A stretch of 64,000 nt of DNA, taken from NCBI GenBank assembly GCA_022599775.1, contig JAHZLQ010000068.1, positions 62,001 to 126,000 of the forward strand, read 5' to 3'. Under the pieces are notes generated by a model. The model saw only the letters and a program-made list of their open reading frames with translations. It made no database searches and was not told where the DNA came from. Source of the stretch: Gammaproteobacteria bacterium. Lineage in GTDB: Bacteria; Pseudomonadota; Gammaproteobacteria; Nevskiales; Nevskiaceae. Positions 46,502-54,541 of the stretch are shown in pieces; position 1 is the first letter of the stretch, and each line of letters starts with the position of its first letter. The position numbers and the translations under genes were made by a program.

Positions 46502-48772
46502 ATGTTCAAAGCTCTGATGCACTGGATGAAGGCGGCCAAGATCCTGCCGCGCATTTCCGAAACCGAAAAGATGGCGCTGGAAGCGGGTGACGTCTGGATC
46601 GACGGCCAGTTGTTCTCCGGCAAGCTGGATTTCAAGGACATTCTGAAGCAGCCCTACGCCACGCTGCCGCCCGAGGAGCAGGCGTTCGTCGACGGCCCCT
46701 GCAACGAGCTGTTGCGGATGTGTGACTTCTATGAGATCGCGAAGACTCGCAAGGTGCCCGACGAAGTCATGGACTTCATCAAGTCCAAGGGCTTCATGGG
46801 CCTGCTGATTCCCAAGCAATACGGCGGGCTCGATTTCTCCACCCAGGGCATCTCCTCGGTGTTGCTCAAGCTGCAGACCGCCTCGCAGCCGGTCGGCACC
46901 ATGGTGGTGATTCCGAACTCGCTCGGGGCCGCCGAGCTGATCAAGCACTACGGCAGCCAGGAACAGAAGGAGCACTATCTGCCGCGCCTGGCGACGGGCG
47001 AATACGTGCCCTGCTTCGGGCTGACCGAACCCACCGCCGGCTCCGATGCCGCCTCGATCAAGGCCGAAGGCATCCTGTTCAAGGATGCGGATGGCGACAT
47101 CAAGATTCGCCTGAACTTCCGCAAGCGCTACATCACGCTGGCACCGATCGCCACGCTGGTGACCCTGGCCTGCCGCCTGCGCGATCCCGAAGGTTTGCTC
47201 GGTGGAAACGAGGACTGCGGCATCAATACCGTATTGATCCACAAGGACACGCCGGGCTTCGAAAACGGCAAGCACCATTTACCGATCGGCGAGACCTTCT
47301 ACAACGGCCCGCTGGTCGGCAAGGACGTGGTCATCCCGATCGACAACATCATCGGCGGGCGCGAGAAGATCGGCCAGGGCTGGGGCATGTTGATGACCCA
47401 GCTCGCCGGCGGCCGCGCGATTTCGCTGCCGGCCGGCGCGGTCGGCGGCATGATCGCCACTTCCGCCGCCACTGGTGCCTACTCGATGGTGCGCCAGCAG
47501 TTCAACCTGCCGATCGGCCGCATGGAAGGCGTCGAGGACAAGGTCGGCAAGATCGCCGCCATCGCCTACATGTGCGAAGGCGCGCGCGTATTCACCTGCT
47601 CGGCCATCGACAACGGCACCAGCCCGCCGGTCGCCGCCGCGGCACTCAAGGCCTACACCACCGACCTCGCCCGCGAACTGATCAGTGACGGCATGGATGT
47701 CTTCTCGGGCGCCGGCGTCATCCAGGGGCCGAACAACATTCTCGGTCGCGCCTATACCAGCGTGCCGGTGGGCATCACCGTGGAAGGCGCCAACATCATG
47801 ACGCGCACCCTGCTGGTGTTCGGCCAGGGTGCCACGCGCTGTCACCCGTATGCGCTCAAGATCGTGCACGCGGTGGACAATGATGACGGTGCCGCCTTCC
47901 GCAACAATCTGCTGGCCTGGATCGCTTCGTTCTTCGTCGGCATCGGACGCGCCGGGCTCTATGGCATCACCCGCGGCTGGCTGGCCGGATCGCCAGTGTC
48001 GGGTCCGACCGCGCGCTACTACCGCCGCTTCGCCTGGAGTGCGGCGCGCTTCTCGATGCTGGCCAACATCGCGCTGTTCGCCCTGGGCGCCAAACTCAAG
48101 GCGCGCGGCAAACTGTCGGGCCGGTTCGCCGACGTCATCGCCTACTCGCTGCTCGGCATTGCCGCGCTGCGCCGCTACGAGGCCGAGGGCCGGCGCGAGG
48201 AGGATCTACCCCTGGTCCAGTACAGCTGCGAGTTCGCGCTGGCGCAGATCCAAAGCGCCTACGAGGGCATCTTCGAAAACTTCGACGGCCTCATCGGTAC
48301 GCTGATGCGGGTGTTTCTGCTGCCGTGGGCACGCATCAATCCGATGGGCAAGCACCCGTCCGATGCGCGGTCCCACGCCGCCGCACTGACGATCCAGACC
48401 TACAACGACCAGTACCAGCGGCTCGCCAAGGGCGTGTTCCTGTCGGACGATGAAAGCCTCGGCGTCGGGCGGCTCCTCAAGGCCTTCCGTCTGGTCAGCC
48501 GCGCCCATGCTGCCGCCGAGAAGATCATCAAGGCACAGAAGGCCAAGAAGCTCCCACGCGGTCCGCTGCCAGCCGATCTGGCGGAGGAAGCGGCCAAGGC
48601 CGGGATCATCGATGCCAGCGAAGTCAGCCACCTGAAGTCCGCGCTCGACGCACGGCTCGATGCCATCGAAGTCGACGAATTCACGCCGGAGCAGTATTTC
48701 ATCAAGCTCGACGAACAGGGTCATCAGCTGGCCGAGGAGCCGCCTCCCCTGAAACGGGCCGCTGGCGTCTGA
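46502..48772 (+). CDS. fadE: acyl-CoA dehydrogenase (FadE type)
   Basis: A 756-residue enzyme of the FadE type, much longer than ordinary acyl-CoA dehydrogenases (about 380). The core has GLTEPTAGSDAASIKAEG, NFRKRYITLAPIATLVTLAC, GREKIGQGWGMLMTQLAGGR and SGAGVIQGPNNILGRAY. The C-terminal 250 residues form the extra domain (DUF1974) of FadE proteins. It does the first oxidation step of fatty-acid degradation and is probably membrane associated. ATG 46502 has gagg upstream; the open frame to 46238 is only an extension. Confidence 0.93.
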   Translation: MFKALMHWMKAAKILPRISETEKMALEAGDVWIDGQLFSGKLDFKDILKQPYATLPPEEQAFVDGPCNELLRMCDFYEIAKTRKVPDEVMDFIKSKGFMGLLIPKQYGGLDFSTQGISSVLLKLQTASQPVGTMVVIPNSLGAAELIKHYGSQEQKEHYLPRLATGEYVPCFGLTEPTAGSDAASIKAEGILFKDADGDIKIRLNFRKRYITLAPIATLVTLACRLRDPEGLLGGNEDCGINTVLIHKDTPGFENGKHHLPIGETFYNGPLVGKDVVIPIDNIIGGREKIGQGWGMLMTQLAGGRAISLPAGAVGGMIATSAATGAYSMVRQQFNLPIGRMEGVEDKVGKIAAIAYMCEGARVFTCSAIDNGTSPPVAAAALKAYTTDLARELISDGMDVFSGAGVIQGPNNILGRAYTSVPVGITVEGANIMTRTLLVFGQGATRCHPYALKIVHAVDNDDGAAFRNNLLAWIASFFVGIGRAGLYGITRGWLAGSPVSGPTARYYRRFAWSAARFSMLANIALFALGAKLKARGKLSGRFADVIAYSLLGIAALRRYEAEGRREEDLPLVQYSCEFALAQIQSAYEGIFENFDGLIGTLMRVFLLPWARINPMGKHPSDARSHAAALTIQTYNDQYQRLAKGVFLSDDESLGVGRLLKAFRLVSRAHAAAEKIIKAQKAKKLPRGPLPADLAEEAAKAGIIDASEVSHLKSALDARLDAIEVDEFTPEQYFIKLDEQGHQLAEEPPPLKRAAGV

Positions 48773-48880: not shown

Positions 48881-49945
48881 ATGAGCAACCCACTTCTGGA
48901 AGGCGTGCGCGTACTCGACCTGACGCGCCTGTTGCCTGGCCCGTTCTGCACCCTGTATCTGGCGCAGCTCGGCGCCGAGGTCACGAAGATCGAAGACCCG
49001 AACGGCGGCGACAGCCTGCGCGGCATGTCCGCCGAGTTGTTCGAACTCGTGAACCGCGGCAAACGATCGCTGACGCTGGACCTGCGCCGCGCCGAGCACA
49101 TCGACGACTTCCTCGAAAGAATCATGCACGCCGATGTCGTGATCGAATCGTTCCGGCCGGGCGTGCTGGCGCGGGCCGGCCTGGACGCGAAGCGGCTGCG
49201 CGAACGCAATCCACGCCTGGTGGTGGCTTCGCTCACCGGCTACGGCCAGACCGGCCCCTACGCGGCACAGGCAGGACATGATCTGAACTACTGCGCCTAC
49301 GCCGGCGTCATCAATGAGTGCGGAACTGGCGCCGAACAGATGCCGGCGATTCCGAACCTGCAGATCGCCGACCTGGCCGGCGGCGCGCTGACCAGTGCGC
49401 TCGCCATCGTGGCCGCCGTGTACGGTGCGCGACAGAGCGGCATCGGCGCGACGCTTGACGCGGCCATGCTTGATGGCACCCTGGCTCTGCAGACGATGTC
49501 GTTGGCACTTGTGCGTTCGGGAACACCGGCGCGGCGCGGCGGCGCCATGCTCAATGGCGGGCTGCCGAACTACGCCGTATATCGCTGTGCCGACGGCCGG
49601 GATCTCGCCCTGGGCGCGCTCGAACCCAAGTTTTTCGAACGCTTCTGCAAGGCCGTGGAGCATCCCGAGTGGCTGGACCTCCCGCCGAAGCAGCAGGCCG
49701 AGGCGATACGGCAGTTGCTGCTCACACGCACGCGCGATGGCTGGATCGAACGGCTCCATGCCGCGGACTGCTGTGTCAGCCCGGTGCTGGAACTCGAGGA
49801 ATCGCTGCGCGACCCGCAAGTGCGAGCACGCGGCCTGGTCGACGATGTCGGCGGCAAGCCCGCCTTTCACTTCCCGGTGCGCTTCGACGACGCCTGGCCC
49901 CCCTCACTGGCGCCAGCGCCAAGGCTCGGACAACCACAACCCTGA
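48881..49945 (+). CDS. CaiB/BaiF family CoA transferase or acyl-CoA racemase
   Basis: A 354-residue class III CoA transferase/alpha-methylacyl-CoA racemase-like protein. GVRVLDLTRLLPGPFCTLYL, GAEVTKIEDPNGGD, RGKRSLTLDLR, VIESFRPGVL, GYGQTGPYAAQAGHDLNY and LQIADLAGGALT are typical; Asp in the GHDLNY block is the usual catalytic Asp. Racemase (branched-chain acyl-CoA) is somewhat likelier than a transferase given the short length and neighbouring fadE. ATG 48881 starts the conserved part. Confidence 0.88.
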   Translation: MSNPLLEGVRVLDLTRLLPGPFCTLYLAQLGAEVTKIEDPNGGDSLRGMSAELFELVNRGKRSLTLDLRRAEHIDDFLERIMHADVVIESFRPGVLARAGLDAKRLRERNPRLVVASLTGYGQTGPYAAQAGHDLNYCAYAGVINECGTGAEQMPAIPNLQIADLAGGALTSALAIVAAVYGARQSGIGATLDAAMLDGTLALQTMSLALVRSGTPARRGGAMLNGGLPNYAVYRCADGRDLALGALEPKFFERFCKAVEHPEWLDLPPKQQAEAIRQLLLTRTRDGWIERLHAADCCVSPVLELEESLRDPQVRARGLVDDVGGKPAFHFPVRFDDAWPPSLAPAPRLGQPQP

Positions 49946-49973
49946 ACACCGGAACACCGGAACACCGGAACAC
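49945..49973. repeat. tandem repeat of an eight-base unit
   Basis: aacaccgg is repeated three times exactly (49945-49952, 49953-49960, 49961-49968) followed by aacac. It starts at the last base of the CoA transferase stop and ends just before the stop of the convergent pseudokinase gene. Likely a slippage-prone spacer; it lies in no coding frame. Confidence 0.85.
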
Positions 49974-49976
49974 AAT

Positions 49977-51791
49977 TCAACGCGCTGGACGCACTCGCGC
50001 GCAGCCCCCTCGATCGATCTCCACAATGGCTTTGCGTCCATCGTCGGTGTCGATTGGCGGCGTCCGCAGGCGACCATTCGGCAAAGTCTGGACATCGTCC
50101 ATCGCGGCCAAATCCTCGTACAGAAAGTCGGCATTGTTGAATACATCGGTGATGTGAACGGCGCATTGGGCTTTCTCACGCGCGATACGAGCCTGCCGCG
50201 CGGCCAATGCCGCTTCGCGTGCCTGTCGCTCCCGATTCGCGATCTCGGCCTGGCGTTGCGCCTCGGCTTCGCGCTGGCGCTGAAATTCGGCTTCACGCAC
50301 GGCGACCGGATCCGGCGAAGCCGTGGCCCCCTGAGCCTGCTCCTGGATTTGGGCCTGGCGTTGGCGTTCCAGCGCCAGCGCATTTTCCCGCGCGTTGCGC
50401 AGACGTTCCGCCTCCTCTTCGATCTCCGCCTGCCGCGCCCTGGCTTGCGCCTCACGTCGTGCGCTTTCCTCGGCCTCGCGTTGCTGATCGATCAAGGCCT
50501 GCTGCTCGGCCTCGCGCTGCTGTTGCTCCTCATCCAGAGCCTGGGTCGCGATACGATCCAGCGCCGAACCCTGCAACACCAGCCTGGCTTTTGGCGCCAC
50601 GAGTGCTCTTGGTGGTGAAGCGCTGGATTCCGGCGCAGCATCGCTCGGTTGAACCGTCGGGACGGCGGGCTCGGCCGCCACCACGACGGCATCCGCGCCC
50701 CGGTCGGGTTCGCGGCTGGACGGGCGCAGCGTCCAGCCCAGTGCCAGCACCGACATCAGCACCAATGCCACGAGCGGCAGCAGCCAGGGACGACGCGGAC
50801 GGCGGGACGGGACCACCGTCGGCGGCGCGATCGTTGCCGGCACCGCCGGTTCCGGCACGACCGGCGATGCCGCCTGAGCCGAGGATTGCGCCGGCTGCAG
50901 TTCGAAGTCCGGAACCGGAAGCTGGCCACGCCACGCCGCCTGCCATTGTTCGACCGTCTGCGGACGCTGCGCCGGCTCCAGCGCCAGGGCCCAGTCGACG
51001 GCCTGCCGCAAGGCCAACGGGAACGCTTCGGACGCGGTCGTCTCACAGGGCAGCAGCACCGAACCGGCCTGACGCTCCGCGCTGGAGGGCGGACGCTGCC
51101 CGGTCATCGCCCGGTAGGCGATGGCGCCGAGGCCGTAGACGTCGGTCCAGGGGCCGCGCCGCCCGGTCACGCTGTACTCTTCGATCGGCGCGTATCCGCT
51201 GGCCGCGCTCGTTCCCAGTGCGCCGTGGCGAAGCCGGACGACATTGCGCGCGGCACCGAAGTCCACGAGCACCGGCTCGCCGTCACGGCGCAGCATCACG
51301 TTGCCGGGCTCGATGTTGTAATGCACCAGGCCGTTGGCATGTGCCACACGCAAGCCGTCCATCAGCGGTTCGATCAAATGCCCCAGCTCGGCAGCATCGA
51401 AACCACCACCTTGCAGACGCGCAGTCAGGGCTTCGCCTTCGATGTATTCGATCACGGCGTAGGCGGTGCCAGCCGATTCGAAGCAGCGACGAACAGCCAC
51501 GACATTGGGATGGCGTATCCGTATCAGCGCCTCCATGTCTCCGATGAAGGCGCGCAGGGCCCAGCGAAACACCCCGTCCCCCTGCTCCCCGCGCGGCAGC
51601 ACCTGGCCATCGATGCGCTGCGCCACACCCAAGGGCAGAAATTCACGCAGGACCACAAGCCCTTCGGCGCTGTCGTAGGCCAGATAGTTGATGCCGTACT
51701 CGCTGGGTGCGCCGACCACGCGTTCGATCACGCAGCCTTCCACGCTGGCGCCTGCCGCGAGCACACCACTCCCGATGACTTTCGAATCCAT
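49977..51791 (-). CDS. transmembrane protein kinase-like protein, probable pseudokinase
   Basis: A 604-residue protein. Residues 18-290 have the Ser/Thr kinase fold (RCFESAGTAYAVIEYIEGE, VHYNIEPGNVML, VLVDFGAARN, GYAPIEEYS, GPWTDVYGLGAIAYRAMTG). Several catalytic residues are altered: the glycine loop is GAPSEYG, the beta-3 Lys is Arg49, the HRD Asp is Asn159 (HYN) and the following Lys is Glu161; only the DFG Asp177 remains. A membrane segment follows at about 336-354 and a long Gln/Glu/Arg-rich coiled coil (about 420-555), then a 60-residue end. It is probably a scaffold or nucleotide sensor rather than an active kinase. Monocistronic. Confidence 0.85.
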   Translation of the reverse strand: MDSKVIGSGVLAAGASVEGCVIERVVGAPSEYGINYLAYDSAEGLVVLREFLPLGVAQRIDGQVLPRGEQGDGVFRWALRAFIGDMEALIRIRHPNVVAVRRCFESAGTAYAVIEYIEGEALTARLQGGGFDAAELGHLIEPLMDGLRVAHANGLVHYNIEPGNVMLRRDGEPVLVDFGAARNVVRLRHGALGTSAASGYAPIEEYSVTGRRGPWTDVYGLGAIAYRAMTGQRPPSSAERQAGSVLLPCETTASEAFPLALRQAVDWALALEPAQRPQTVEQWQAAWRGQLPVPDFELQPAQSSAQAASPVVPEPAVPATIAPPTVVPSRRPRRPWLLPLVALVLMSVLALGWTLRPSSREPDRGADAVVVAAEPAVPTVQPSDAAPESSASPPRALVAPKARLVLQGSALDRIATQALDEEQQQREAEQQALIDQQREAEESARREAQARARQAEIEEEAERLRNARENALALERQRQAQIQEQAQGATASPDPVAVREAEFQRQREAEAQRQAEIANRERQAREAALAARQARIAREKAQCAVHITDVFNNADFLYEDLAAMDDVQTLPNGRLRTPPIDTDDGRKAIVEIDRGGCARVRPAR

Positions 51792-52014
51792 TTGATCGCC
51801 CCCGAATCCTCGTCCACCACGCGCCGAATGCTTTGCGCCCCGAACCTCGCTGCGCCATGGTGAAATTTAATGCAGTGAAAAAGCAGGATTCACGCCAGCG
51901 CAGCCCGCAAGCGACGCACACTGCGACAGTTCGTACCACGATAGGCTCGCAGTCAGCCACTTTTGGTTAAGATGCCGGCCATCTCGAAAAACGATGGCGG
52001 AGGAACACGCTTTT

Positions 52015-53664
52015 ATGAGCATCCACAGCCCGATTGATCTGCTGATGCAATGGGTCAAGGAACGTCCCAACGAACCGTACCTGCATCAGCCGGTCAACGG
52101 ACAATGGCGCAGCTATACCTGGAGCGAAGTCGCCGACCAGGCGCAGCGCATGGCCACCGCCCTCAAGGCATTGGATCTGGCGCCGGGCGCCCGTGTCGCG
52201 ATCTCCGGCATGAACACGGCACACTGGTACATGGCCGATGCGGCGATCACCATGGCCGGTTGCGTCACGGTTGGCCTGTACCCCAACCAAGCGCCGGAGC
52301 ATGTCAGCTACATCCTCGAGCATAGCGAAACGCAGGTGCTGTTCCTGGGCCCGATGCCCGACATCGACAGCTTCCTGAAGGCCGTTCCGCCGGGGATTCG
52401 CGTGGTGCAGATGCCCTATCCCGGCGTTCCGGAACAGGCACTCAAATGGAGTGTGCTGGTGCAGGAACACGCGCCACTCACCGAAATGCCGCAACCCAAA
52501 CCCGATCAGCTGATGACGCTGATCTACACCTCCGGCACCACCGGCCATCCGAAAGGGGTGATGGTCAGCTACGGCAACATGATGTTCGCCGCGGACGGTC
52601 TGATCGAAGCCATGCCATCCCGGGGGCGCGAGCGCCTGCTGTGCTATCTGCCGCTGGCGCATGCCTTCGAACGCGGCGCCGTCGAACTGACGTCCATGGT
52701 GCTCGGCGCGCAGGTCTACTTCATCGAAAGCGTGGACAAACTGCAGGCCGCGCTGCAATACGCGAGACCGACGCGATTCTTCGGCGTGCCGCTGGTCTAC
52801 AACCGCATTCAGTCCGGCGTGTTGCGGCTGCTGCCGCAGCATAAGATCGACCGGCTGATGCGCATCCCGATCCTGTCGGGCATCGTCAAGCGCAAGGTGC
52901 TCAAGGGGCTCGGTCTGGACAAGGCGCATCTGTGCATCGTCGGTGCCGCGCCGATGCCGATCCCGCTGCTCGAATGGTTCGACAAGATCGGGCTGACGGT
53001 GTTCCAGGGCTACGGCATGACCGAGAACGCGATCTATGCCACCACCAACCGGCCCGGCATGAACCGCATCGGCTCAGTCGGCAAGACCATGCCCGGCGCG
53101 CACATGAAGATTGCGGACGACGGAGAGATCCTGTTCCGTCATGGCGCGGTGATGCAGGGCTACTACAAGGAGCCCGAGAAGACCCGCGAAACCTTCACCG
53201 ACGATGGCTGGCTCAAGACCGGTGATGTCGGGCGTGTCGACGCCGACGGCTATCTGTTCATCACCGGCCGCGTCAAGGAAATCTTCAAGACGGCCAAGGG
53301 CAAATACGTGGCGCCGGCACCGATCGAAGGTCAGCTCGCACGTAACCACGATATCGATCAGGTCTGCTTCGTCGGCAGCAATCTGAAACAGCCGATCATG
53401 CTGGTGTCGCTCAACGAGGATGCGCGCAAGAAGTCCCGCGAAGAGGTCGAGGCCGGGCTGATCCGCGACATGGATGCCGTGAATGCGACGCTGGAGCCGC
53501 ATGAAGCGATCGCCAAGATGGTGGTCGTCAAGGACAGCTGGTCGGTCGACAACGGCCTCGCCACGCCGACCTTCAAGGTCCGTCGTGCGCAGGTCGAGCA
53601 GCGCTATGGCGAACTGCTGGAAGCCGAATCGCAGGTCCGCAACAAGCTCAGCTGGGAAGCCTGA
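52015..53664 (+). CDS. AMP-binding long-chain acyl-CoA synthetase-like enzyme
   Basis: A 549-residue ligase of the ANL superfamily, activating a carboxylate with ATP and CoA. The P-loop is LIYTSGTTGHPKGVMVSYGN; GYGMTENAIYAT, GWLKTGDVGRVDADGYLFITG and RVKEIFKTAKGKYVAPAPIE complete the A-motifs. The subgroup is close to fatty-acyl-CoA synthetases (FadD-like/FAA1) that have the long C-terminal part. ATG 52015 is chosen because ggagga lies ten bases upstream; 51994 is the other ATG. Near fadE and the CoA transferase, suggesting fatty-acid degradation. Confidence 0.88.
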   Translation: MSIHSPIDLLMQWVKERPNEPYLHQPVNGQWRSYTWSEVADQAQRMATALKALDLAPGARVAISGMNTAHWYMADAAITMAGCVTVGLYPNQAPEHVSYILEHSETQVLFLGPMPDIDSFLKAVPPGIRVVQMPYPGVPEQALKWSVLVQEHAPLTEMPQPKPDQLMTLIYTSGTTGHPKGVMVSYGNMMFAADGLIEAMPSRGRERLLCYLPLAHAFERGAVELTSMVLGAQVYFIESVDKLQAALQYARPTRFFGVPLVYNRIQSGVLRLLPQHKIDRLMRIPILSGIVKRKVLKGLGLDKAHLCIVGAAPMPIPLLEWFDKIGLTVFQGYGMTENAIYATTNRPGMNRIGSVGKTMPGAHMKIADDGEILFRHGAVMQGYYKEPEKTRETFTDDGWLKTGDVGRVDADGYLFITGRVKEIFKTAKGKYVAPAPIEGQLARNHDIDQVCFVGSNLKQPIMLVSLNEDARKKSREEVEAGLIRDMDAVNATLEPHEAIAKMVVVKDSWSVDNGLATPTFKVRRAQVEQRYGELLEAESQVRNKLSWEA

Positions 53665-53671
53665 CCGAGAC

Positions 53672-54541
53672 TCAGACGAACACCACGGTCTTGTTGCCGT
53701 CGACGATGATGCGGTCCTCGACATGCCAGCGCACCGCACGCGCGAGCACCTGTCTTTCGAGATCACGACCAAGCTGTTTCAGGTCCACGGTCTCGAAGCG
53801 GTGCGAAACGCGCGCGGTGTCCTGCTCGATGATCGGCCCCTGATCGAGGTCGGCGGTGACGTAGTGCGCCGTGGCGCCGATCAGCTTCACGCCGCGCTCG
53901 TAGGCCTGGCGATAGGGATCGGCGCCGACGAAGGCCGGCAGAAACGAGTGGTGAATGTTGATGATGCGTCCCGGCCACTGCGCCACCAAGCCGGGCGACA
54001 GAATCCGCATGAAGCGCGCCAGCACCACGAAGTCGGCCGCATCCGCCAGAATCGCCTGCATGCGCGCCTCGGCATCCGCCTGCGTATCAGCCGTGAACGG
54101 CACGTGCTCGAAACGTACGCCGAATCGTTCGACCTCGTCACGCAGGTCGGGGTGGTTGGAGATCACCAACGCCAGATCGACGCCCAGCTCCCCGGTGTTC
54201 CAGCGCCACAGCAGCTCCAGCAGCGCATGATCGTGGCGCGATACCAGTACCGCCATTCGGGGCCGGCGCGCGGCGTGCGAAATATGCCAATCCATTTCGA
54301 AGCGCGCCGCCACCTCATCGGCAAAGGCGTTTTCCAGCGCCCTTCCGCCCAGGTCCAGGCCCGGCGTCTGGAACTCCAGACGCATGAAGAAGCGGCCGCC
54401 GCTGGGATCGGTCGAGTGCTGATCCAGCTCGGTGATATTGGCGCCGTGACGAAACAGGAACGTGGTGACGGCCGACACGATTCCGGGTCGGTCCGGGCAG
54501 GTGATGAGCAGTCTGGCGGTGGTTTCGGTGGCTGTGGTCAT
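53672..54541 (-). CDS. purU: formyltetrahydrofolate deformylase
   Basis: A 289-residue enzyme that hydrolyses 10-formyl-tetrahydrofolate to formate and tetrahydrofolate. The N-terminal ACT domain ([19 protein letters not shown]) and the formyltransferase-like domain ([69 protein letters not shown]) are intact, with the catalytic Asp in the last segment. ATG 54541 (MTTATETT) or 54553 are both possible. Confidence 0.95.

Follow-up and report, generated by a model that had tools for sequence, protein, structure and literature searches.

According to our analysis, the gene at 49977 to 51791 on the minus strand of the window (the whole stretch of 64,000 nucleotides studied here) probably encodes a single-pass inner-membrane, receptor-like pseudokinase which acts through binding, as is proposed for EssB/YukC of type VII secretion. 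The protein is laid out as follows, with the basis of each assignment in parentheses.

49977 to 51791, minus strand: pseudokinase coding sequence, 604 aa, ATG at 51791 and stop at 49977 to 49979 (ORF, ortholog, purifying selection)
50922 to 51740, minus strand: Hanks-type kinase-like domain, residues about 18 to 290, presumed cytoplasmic (Pfam, PpkA, AlphaFold2)
51693 to 51713, minus strand: degenerate glycine loop GAPSEYG, residues 27 to 33 (alignment with relatives)
51645 to 51647, minus strand: R49 at the beta-3 Lys position (alignment with relatives)
51537 to 51539, minus strand: D85 at the alpha-C Glu position (alignment with relatives, clade comparison)
51315 to 51323, minus strand: HYN, residues 157 to 159, at the HRD position (alignment; Asn159 is Asp in the sister genome G001)
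51309 to 51311, minus strand: E161 at the catalytic-loop Lys position (alignment with relatives)
51255 to 51263, minus strand: DFG, kept, residues 177 to 179 (alignment with relatives)
50727 to 50783, minus strand: single transmembrane helix, residues 337 to 355, with RRPRRP just before it (hydrophobicity; model helix at 337 to 352)
50133 to 50567, minus strand: long A/E/Q/R-rich helices, residues 409 to 487 and 495 to 553 (AlphaFold2; lengths of about 12 and 9 nm when helical throughout)
49980 to 50186, minus strand: two-cysteine C-terminal domain of about 60 aa, residues about 536 to 604 (C543, C597), presumed periplasmic (conservation, AlphaFold2)

The bilobal fold of a Hanks-type Ser/Thr kinase is present in the N-terminal domain, as the first-pass annotation had claimed, and Pfam, the alignment with PpkA, AlphaFold2, and Foldseek agree on it. 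Pfam Pkinase matches the domain with an E value of 5e-20, and among solved structures PpkA is nearest in sequence (5hnv, E 3e-39). The AlphaFold2 model, built from 45 alignment rows, has a pLDDT of about 92 to 98 over most of the domain and lower values around residues 181 to 200, and its top Foldseek match is again PpkA (E 2e-24, TM-score 0.85 by target). The ortholog in the sister species is 95% identical, and a chance ORF or a misread frame is ruled out by orthologs and selection.

The catalytic residues, by contrast with those of canonical relatives, are extensively altered. The substitutions named in the first-pass annotation, a changed glycine loop, Arg for the beta-3 Lys, Asn for the HRD Asp in HYN, and Glu for the downstream Lys, with DFG remaining, are all recovered by alignment with relatives (R49, N159, E161, and D177), and the alignment adds one change which that annotation did not name, D85 at the alpha-C Glu position. 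The glycine loop GAPSEYG keeps the first and last Gly of the G-x-G-G-F-G pattern, and the beta-3 stretch reads VVLREFLP instead of the canonical VAIKEYLP. In the set of five residues expected of an active Hanks-type kinase, R, D, and N replace K, E, and D, while catalytic Asn164 and DFG Asp177 are retained; in the catalytic triad, the loss of at least one residue of which marks a pseudokinase, the beta-3 Lys and the HRD Asp are changed and the DFG Asp is kept. No alternative alignment restoring the beta-3 Lys, the alpha-C Glu, or the HRD Asp was found. Since G001 reads HYD where the window genome (G000) reads HYN, the HRD loss is specific to the window genome.

This is more loss than usual among bacterial kinases, a point of the first-pass annotation which relatives, tree, and model back. 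The beta-3 Lys, alpha-C Glu, HRD Asp, catalytic Asn, and DFG Asp are all present in 79 of the 80 named relatives compared, the exception being a kinase of a Thioploca MAG (L154, 3932 to 5851), a separate pseudokinase outside the clade described below, with HQN, Ser for the catalytic-loop Asn, and NFG for DFG. Loss of the catalytic-loop Lys on its own is common in the same set, as in the Hyphomicrobium-type kinases L100, L107, L109, and their relatives, where the loop reads HRDIAPDN with Ala for Lys and the other motifs are intact. When 369 Gammaproteobacteria genomes were searched, the 29 best loci from genomes other than the window's own each had the canonical residue at the five key positions, with no similar pseudokinase among them. 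The window genome itself has eight Pkinase matches, and the catalytic loops of six others, read in frame (L188 left out), keep the Asp, the Lys, and DFG. Of these own-genome kinases, L189, L190, L191, L192, and L194 carry HKD and DFG motifs, and several of them show, by eye, an OmpR-type DNA-binding-like start, with the kinase next, then a hydrophobic stretch and an extended C-terminal region.

Proteins of the pseudokinase kind are found in 11 of 58 Nevskiaceae genomes, and these 11 degenerate kinases, the window protein included, form a single clade. In trees computed without the ten catalytic columns, the clade has bootstrap/SH-aLRT support of 99/95 under the mixture model, where it is present in all 200 bootstrap trees examined, and 98 in the quick tree; the G076 and G021 proteins are long branches within it, and fast-evolving rows can attract one another. 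The alpha-C Glu and the catalytic-loop Lys are gone in all 11 members, whereas the beta-3 Lys is retained in 3 of 11 and the HRD Asp in 8 of 11; the DFG Asp survives only in the window protein's genus and is gone in the other 9. Parsimony on the mixture-model tree requires at least four changes for the beta-3 Lys, at least three for the HRD Asp, two for the catalytic Asn, and one each for the alpha-C Glu, the catalytic Lys, and the DFG Asp. A search for relatives with the same substitutions had been suggested earlier; those which exist carry similar, not identical, sets. Within the clade, catalytic residues have been lost to differing degrees and repeatedly, under continued selection on the fold. 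Since canonical relatives and a sister protein differing at the HRD position exist, the order and cost of losing catalysis are directly testable; few bacterial pseudokinases are understood.

Nucleotide binding or weak activity is conceivable, since the Mg-binding pair Asn164/Asp177 is kept and the sister species retains the HRD Asp. The protein could accordingly be an atypical nucleotide-binding switch or a weakly active kinase, in which R49 and D85 would replace the Lys-Glu pair, Asn164 and Asp177 would hold Mg-ATP, and a conformational change would be driven by ATP binding, transfer being slight or absent. The exchanges of Lys for Arg and of Glu for Asp are both conservative, and DYD pseudokinases, likewise with Arg at beta-3, have been modelled with their pocket occupied by ATP (PMC12599244). 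We regard this reading as unlikely, albeit worth serious consideration, in view of the altered glycine loop, the Asn at the HRD position, and the Glu in the catalytic loop; moreover, the DFG Asp is gone in most of the clade, and therefore the usual Mg-ATP binding does not characterise the entire clade.

Selection preserves both the kinase fold and the C-terminal domain. Between G000 and G001, dN/dS is 0.20 for the kinase domain (12 synonymous and 7 non-synonymous changes, which are small counts, residue 159, Asn versus Asp, being one of the seven), about 0.75 to 1.0 for the linker and stalk, and 0.09 for the synthetase gene next door, while the last 64 residues have 4 synonymous changes and no non-synonymous one. 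In a second branch of the clade, the kinase dN/dS is 0.18 for G061 versus G068, and 0.13 and 0.16 for the pairs with G073. These values speak against a functionless kinase gene on its way to loss, which the patchy distribution and the repeated loss of catalytic residues might suggest, as might the stop-containing remnant which G022 has at the corresponding position. The kinase dN/dS lies well below 1 in two separate branches, even if the G000/G001 counts are small, the C-terminal domain is unchanged between G000 and G001, and the reading frame is open in 11 genomes, one copy ending at a contig end, so that we deem such decay very improbable for the window gene. Since the distribution is patchy and one remnant has decayed, the pseudokinase is dispensable in some lineages. 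In plasmid records, the matches were to the kinase domain only, and none reached 80% query coverage.

The description as a transmembrane pseudokinase is upheld by relatives, tree, and model: exactly one membrane helix follows the kinase in all 10 full-length clade members. Basic residues flanking the helix number 4 before and 3 after, and therefore the main ground for the orientation is the kinase domain, which is presumed to be cytoplasmic. Beyond the helix, a long Gln/Glu-rich coiled coil had been proposed; the long A/E/Q/R-rich helices are indeed predicted by AlphaFold2, whereas their 3.5-residue hydrophobic periodicity is not above that of shuffled sequences (0.25 and 0.69 of shuffles reach it for residues 409 to 487 and 495 to 553), and the label of coiled coil is unsupported for lack of a heptad pattern beyond shuffles.

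The stalk is followed by a domain which the first-pass annotation did not report. It is conserved in seven clade members, in all of which exactly two Cys follow the membrane helix, 54 to 56 residues apart, and in the window protein C543 and C597 are probably disulfide-bonded. AlphaFold2 modelled the domain from the single sequence with a pLDDT of 79. The window protein's domain has no Pfam match and no PDB fold match with E below 0.001, and the domain was not detected at E 1e-5 in the 368 other Gammaproteobacteria genomes sampled; a search across the order gave a single weak match outside the family. Two further candidate carriers, L039 and L040, were rejected, the ORFs there being unrelated and the matches taken as chance.

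Three other clade members (L042, L076, and L077) end in TonB_C instead (best E 5e-12). This raises the alternative of a TolA- or TonB-like mechanical linker, in which the kinase-like domain would be a mere cytoplasmic anchor and the periplasm-spanning stalk and tip would do the work. The helices would reach about 20 nm, and NCBIfam tolA_full matches the stalk with E 4e-5; that match, however, lies under the model's cut-off and is probably compositional. Constraint is stronger on the kinase domain than on the stalk, the window protein itself ends in neither a TonB_C nor a TolA domain, and a TolQ/ExbB-type gene is absent among the immediate neighbours. Taken with these points, a purely mechanical role appears improbable.

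In G076, two more kinases (L182 and L183) share with the window protein the order of kinase, membrane helix, and two-cysteine domain, the last being the same domain, whereas their HRD, Lys, and DFG motifs are intact and their kinase domains are not of the FGITYLA/PpkA-like type. They lie on contigs C7 and C3 (L182, L183, L184, and L185), and C3 also carries a PP2C phosphatase with another kinase after it. Since most of the catalytic residues of the window protein are lost and its C-terminal domain also occurs on working kinases, the protein probably signals or scaffolds by binding; the role of scaffold or sensor put forward in the first-pass annotation is plausible, given purifying selection on both end domains and the sharing of the C-terminal domain with intact kinases. 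That sharing also provides a concrete hypothesis on what such proteins sense. More tentatively, and as a rather doubtful extension, the Nevskiaceae clade might consist of envelope-spanning receptor pseudokinases which exchange their tips, two-cysteine or TonB_C, and share a tip with active receptor kinases. If so, a dead receptor and a live one, alike in their ectodomain, could respond to a common signal or form a pair, a situation analogous to that of eukaryotic pseudokinase co-receptors.

Under the favoured reading, that of a receptor-like pseudokinase working by binding, the cytoplasmic domain would have kept the Hanks fold, given up phosphotransfer, and come to act as a binding module, connected through a single membrane helix and long helices in the periplasm to a two-cysteine domain which would read the cell envelope or anchor to it. 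Signals would be transmitted through conformation and through binding to a cytoplasmic partner, which, by analogy with EssB/YukC, we guess might be an active Ser/Thr kinase or an envelope machine; the nature of the signal is likewise a guess.

EssB/YukC, whose action through binding rather than catalysis has been proposed (PMC9600267, PMC12599244) and whose YukC reportedly does not bind ATP (PMC9600267), is nearest to the window protein in layout. Both have an N-terminal cytoplasmic pseudokinase, one membrane helix, and an extracytoplasmic part, the orientation of the window protein being inferred. EssB/YukC is a secretion component of Firmicutes in which the glycine loop is degraded and the activation loop markedly reduced, whereas the window protein is gammaproteobacterial, aligns along the whole PpkA kinase domain, carries a two-cysteine tip, and has no secretion genes nearby, its neighbours being fadE, a CoA-transferase gene, an acyl-CoA synthetase gene, and purU. 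PpkA, the Ser/Thr kinase of type VI secretion, is the closest solved kinase domain by both sequence and fold, and a periplasmic domain is ascribed to it (PMC13147305). It has GGFG, the beta-3 Lys (AIKEYMP), HRD, and DFG, with Ser at its catalytic-loop Lys position (HRDIS); the tail of the window protein differs from that of PpkA, and type VI genes are absent beside the window gene. The PpkA-like kinases of Solimonas and its neighbours (L006 to L009, and L094 from Solimonas fluminis) are among the nearest canonical kinases, being about 40% identical, and have all catalytic residues, a CAP-type C-terminal domain, and a different locus.

Seven bacterial pseudokinase families have been described together with EssB/YukC, SidJ, and SelO (PMC12599244), and, compared by the descriptions given there, the window protein lacks at least one defining feature of each of EssB/YukC, DYD, GLW, CP1, and DLHK. 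GLW pseudokinases are proteobacterial and have a membrane helix after the kinase, as does the window protein, but GLW replaces HRD and a poly-Leu stretch with Leu/Trp occupies the beta-3 Lys site, where the window protein has HYN and VVLR. DYD pseudokinases share the change of beta-3 Lys to Arg and the loss of the alpha-C Glu (R49 and D85 here), yet they come from actinobacteria and firmicutes and have DYD at the site where the window protein keeps DFG. CP1 and DLHK pseudokinases are without the membrane helix present here. ActPs1 to ActPs3 are actinobacterial, and in ActPs1 all three catalytic residues are changed, whereas the gammaproteobacterial window protein keeps the DFG Asp. The text of PMC12599244 has no mention of TonB, TolA, PpkA, 'coiled', or 'periplasm', and a search for literature on kinase-TonB fusions gave nothing relevant.

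In the window, the pseudokinase gene stands by itself, with a convergent gene on one side and a divergent one on the other, in the following surroundings.

46502 to 48772, plus strand: fadE-type acyl-CoA dehydrogenase, conserved neighbour (Pfam, synteny)
48881 to 49945, plus strand: CoA-transferase family III, convergent neighbour (Pfam, synteny)
51994 to 53664, plus strand: AMP-binding acyl-CoA synthetase-like gene, divergent neighbour (Pfam, synteny)
53672 to 54541, minus strand: formyltetrahydrofolate deformylase-like gene (purU), conserved neighbour (ACT and formyltransferase domains, synteny)

This locus is common to six genomes from three genus groups (G000, G001, G014, G021, G061, and G068), in the order fadE, with or without the CoA-transferase gene, pseudokinase, and acyl-CoA synthetase, with purU beyond in most; in G073, the pseudokinase gene adjoins the synthetase gene at a contig end. 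In G011, G075, and G079, which belong to one genus group, the pseudokinase gene lies instead between ttcA (identified by reading the sequence by eye) and mdoG (identified by Pfam), on the mdoG strand, and the G076 copy is at another place than either locus type. No partner gene is common to both locus types, genes of fatty-acid metabolism flanking one and ttcA and mdoG the other. The G022 remnant, a stop-containing piece of the C-terminal domain, lies between ttcA and mdoG (L035, 1501 to 1704; G022:C2:423396-423599), where sister genomes have the whole gene. In G001 (L045, G001:C10), the CoA-transferase gene by the pseudokinase gene is apparently absent or disrupted, and its best match is on a different contig. 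At 49945 to 49975 of the window, a short tandem CCGGAACA-type repeat lies between the convergent CoA-transferase and pseudokinase genes.
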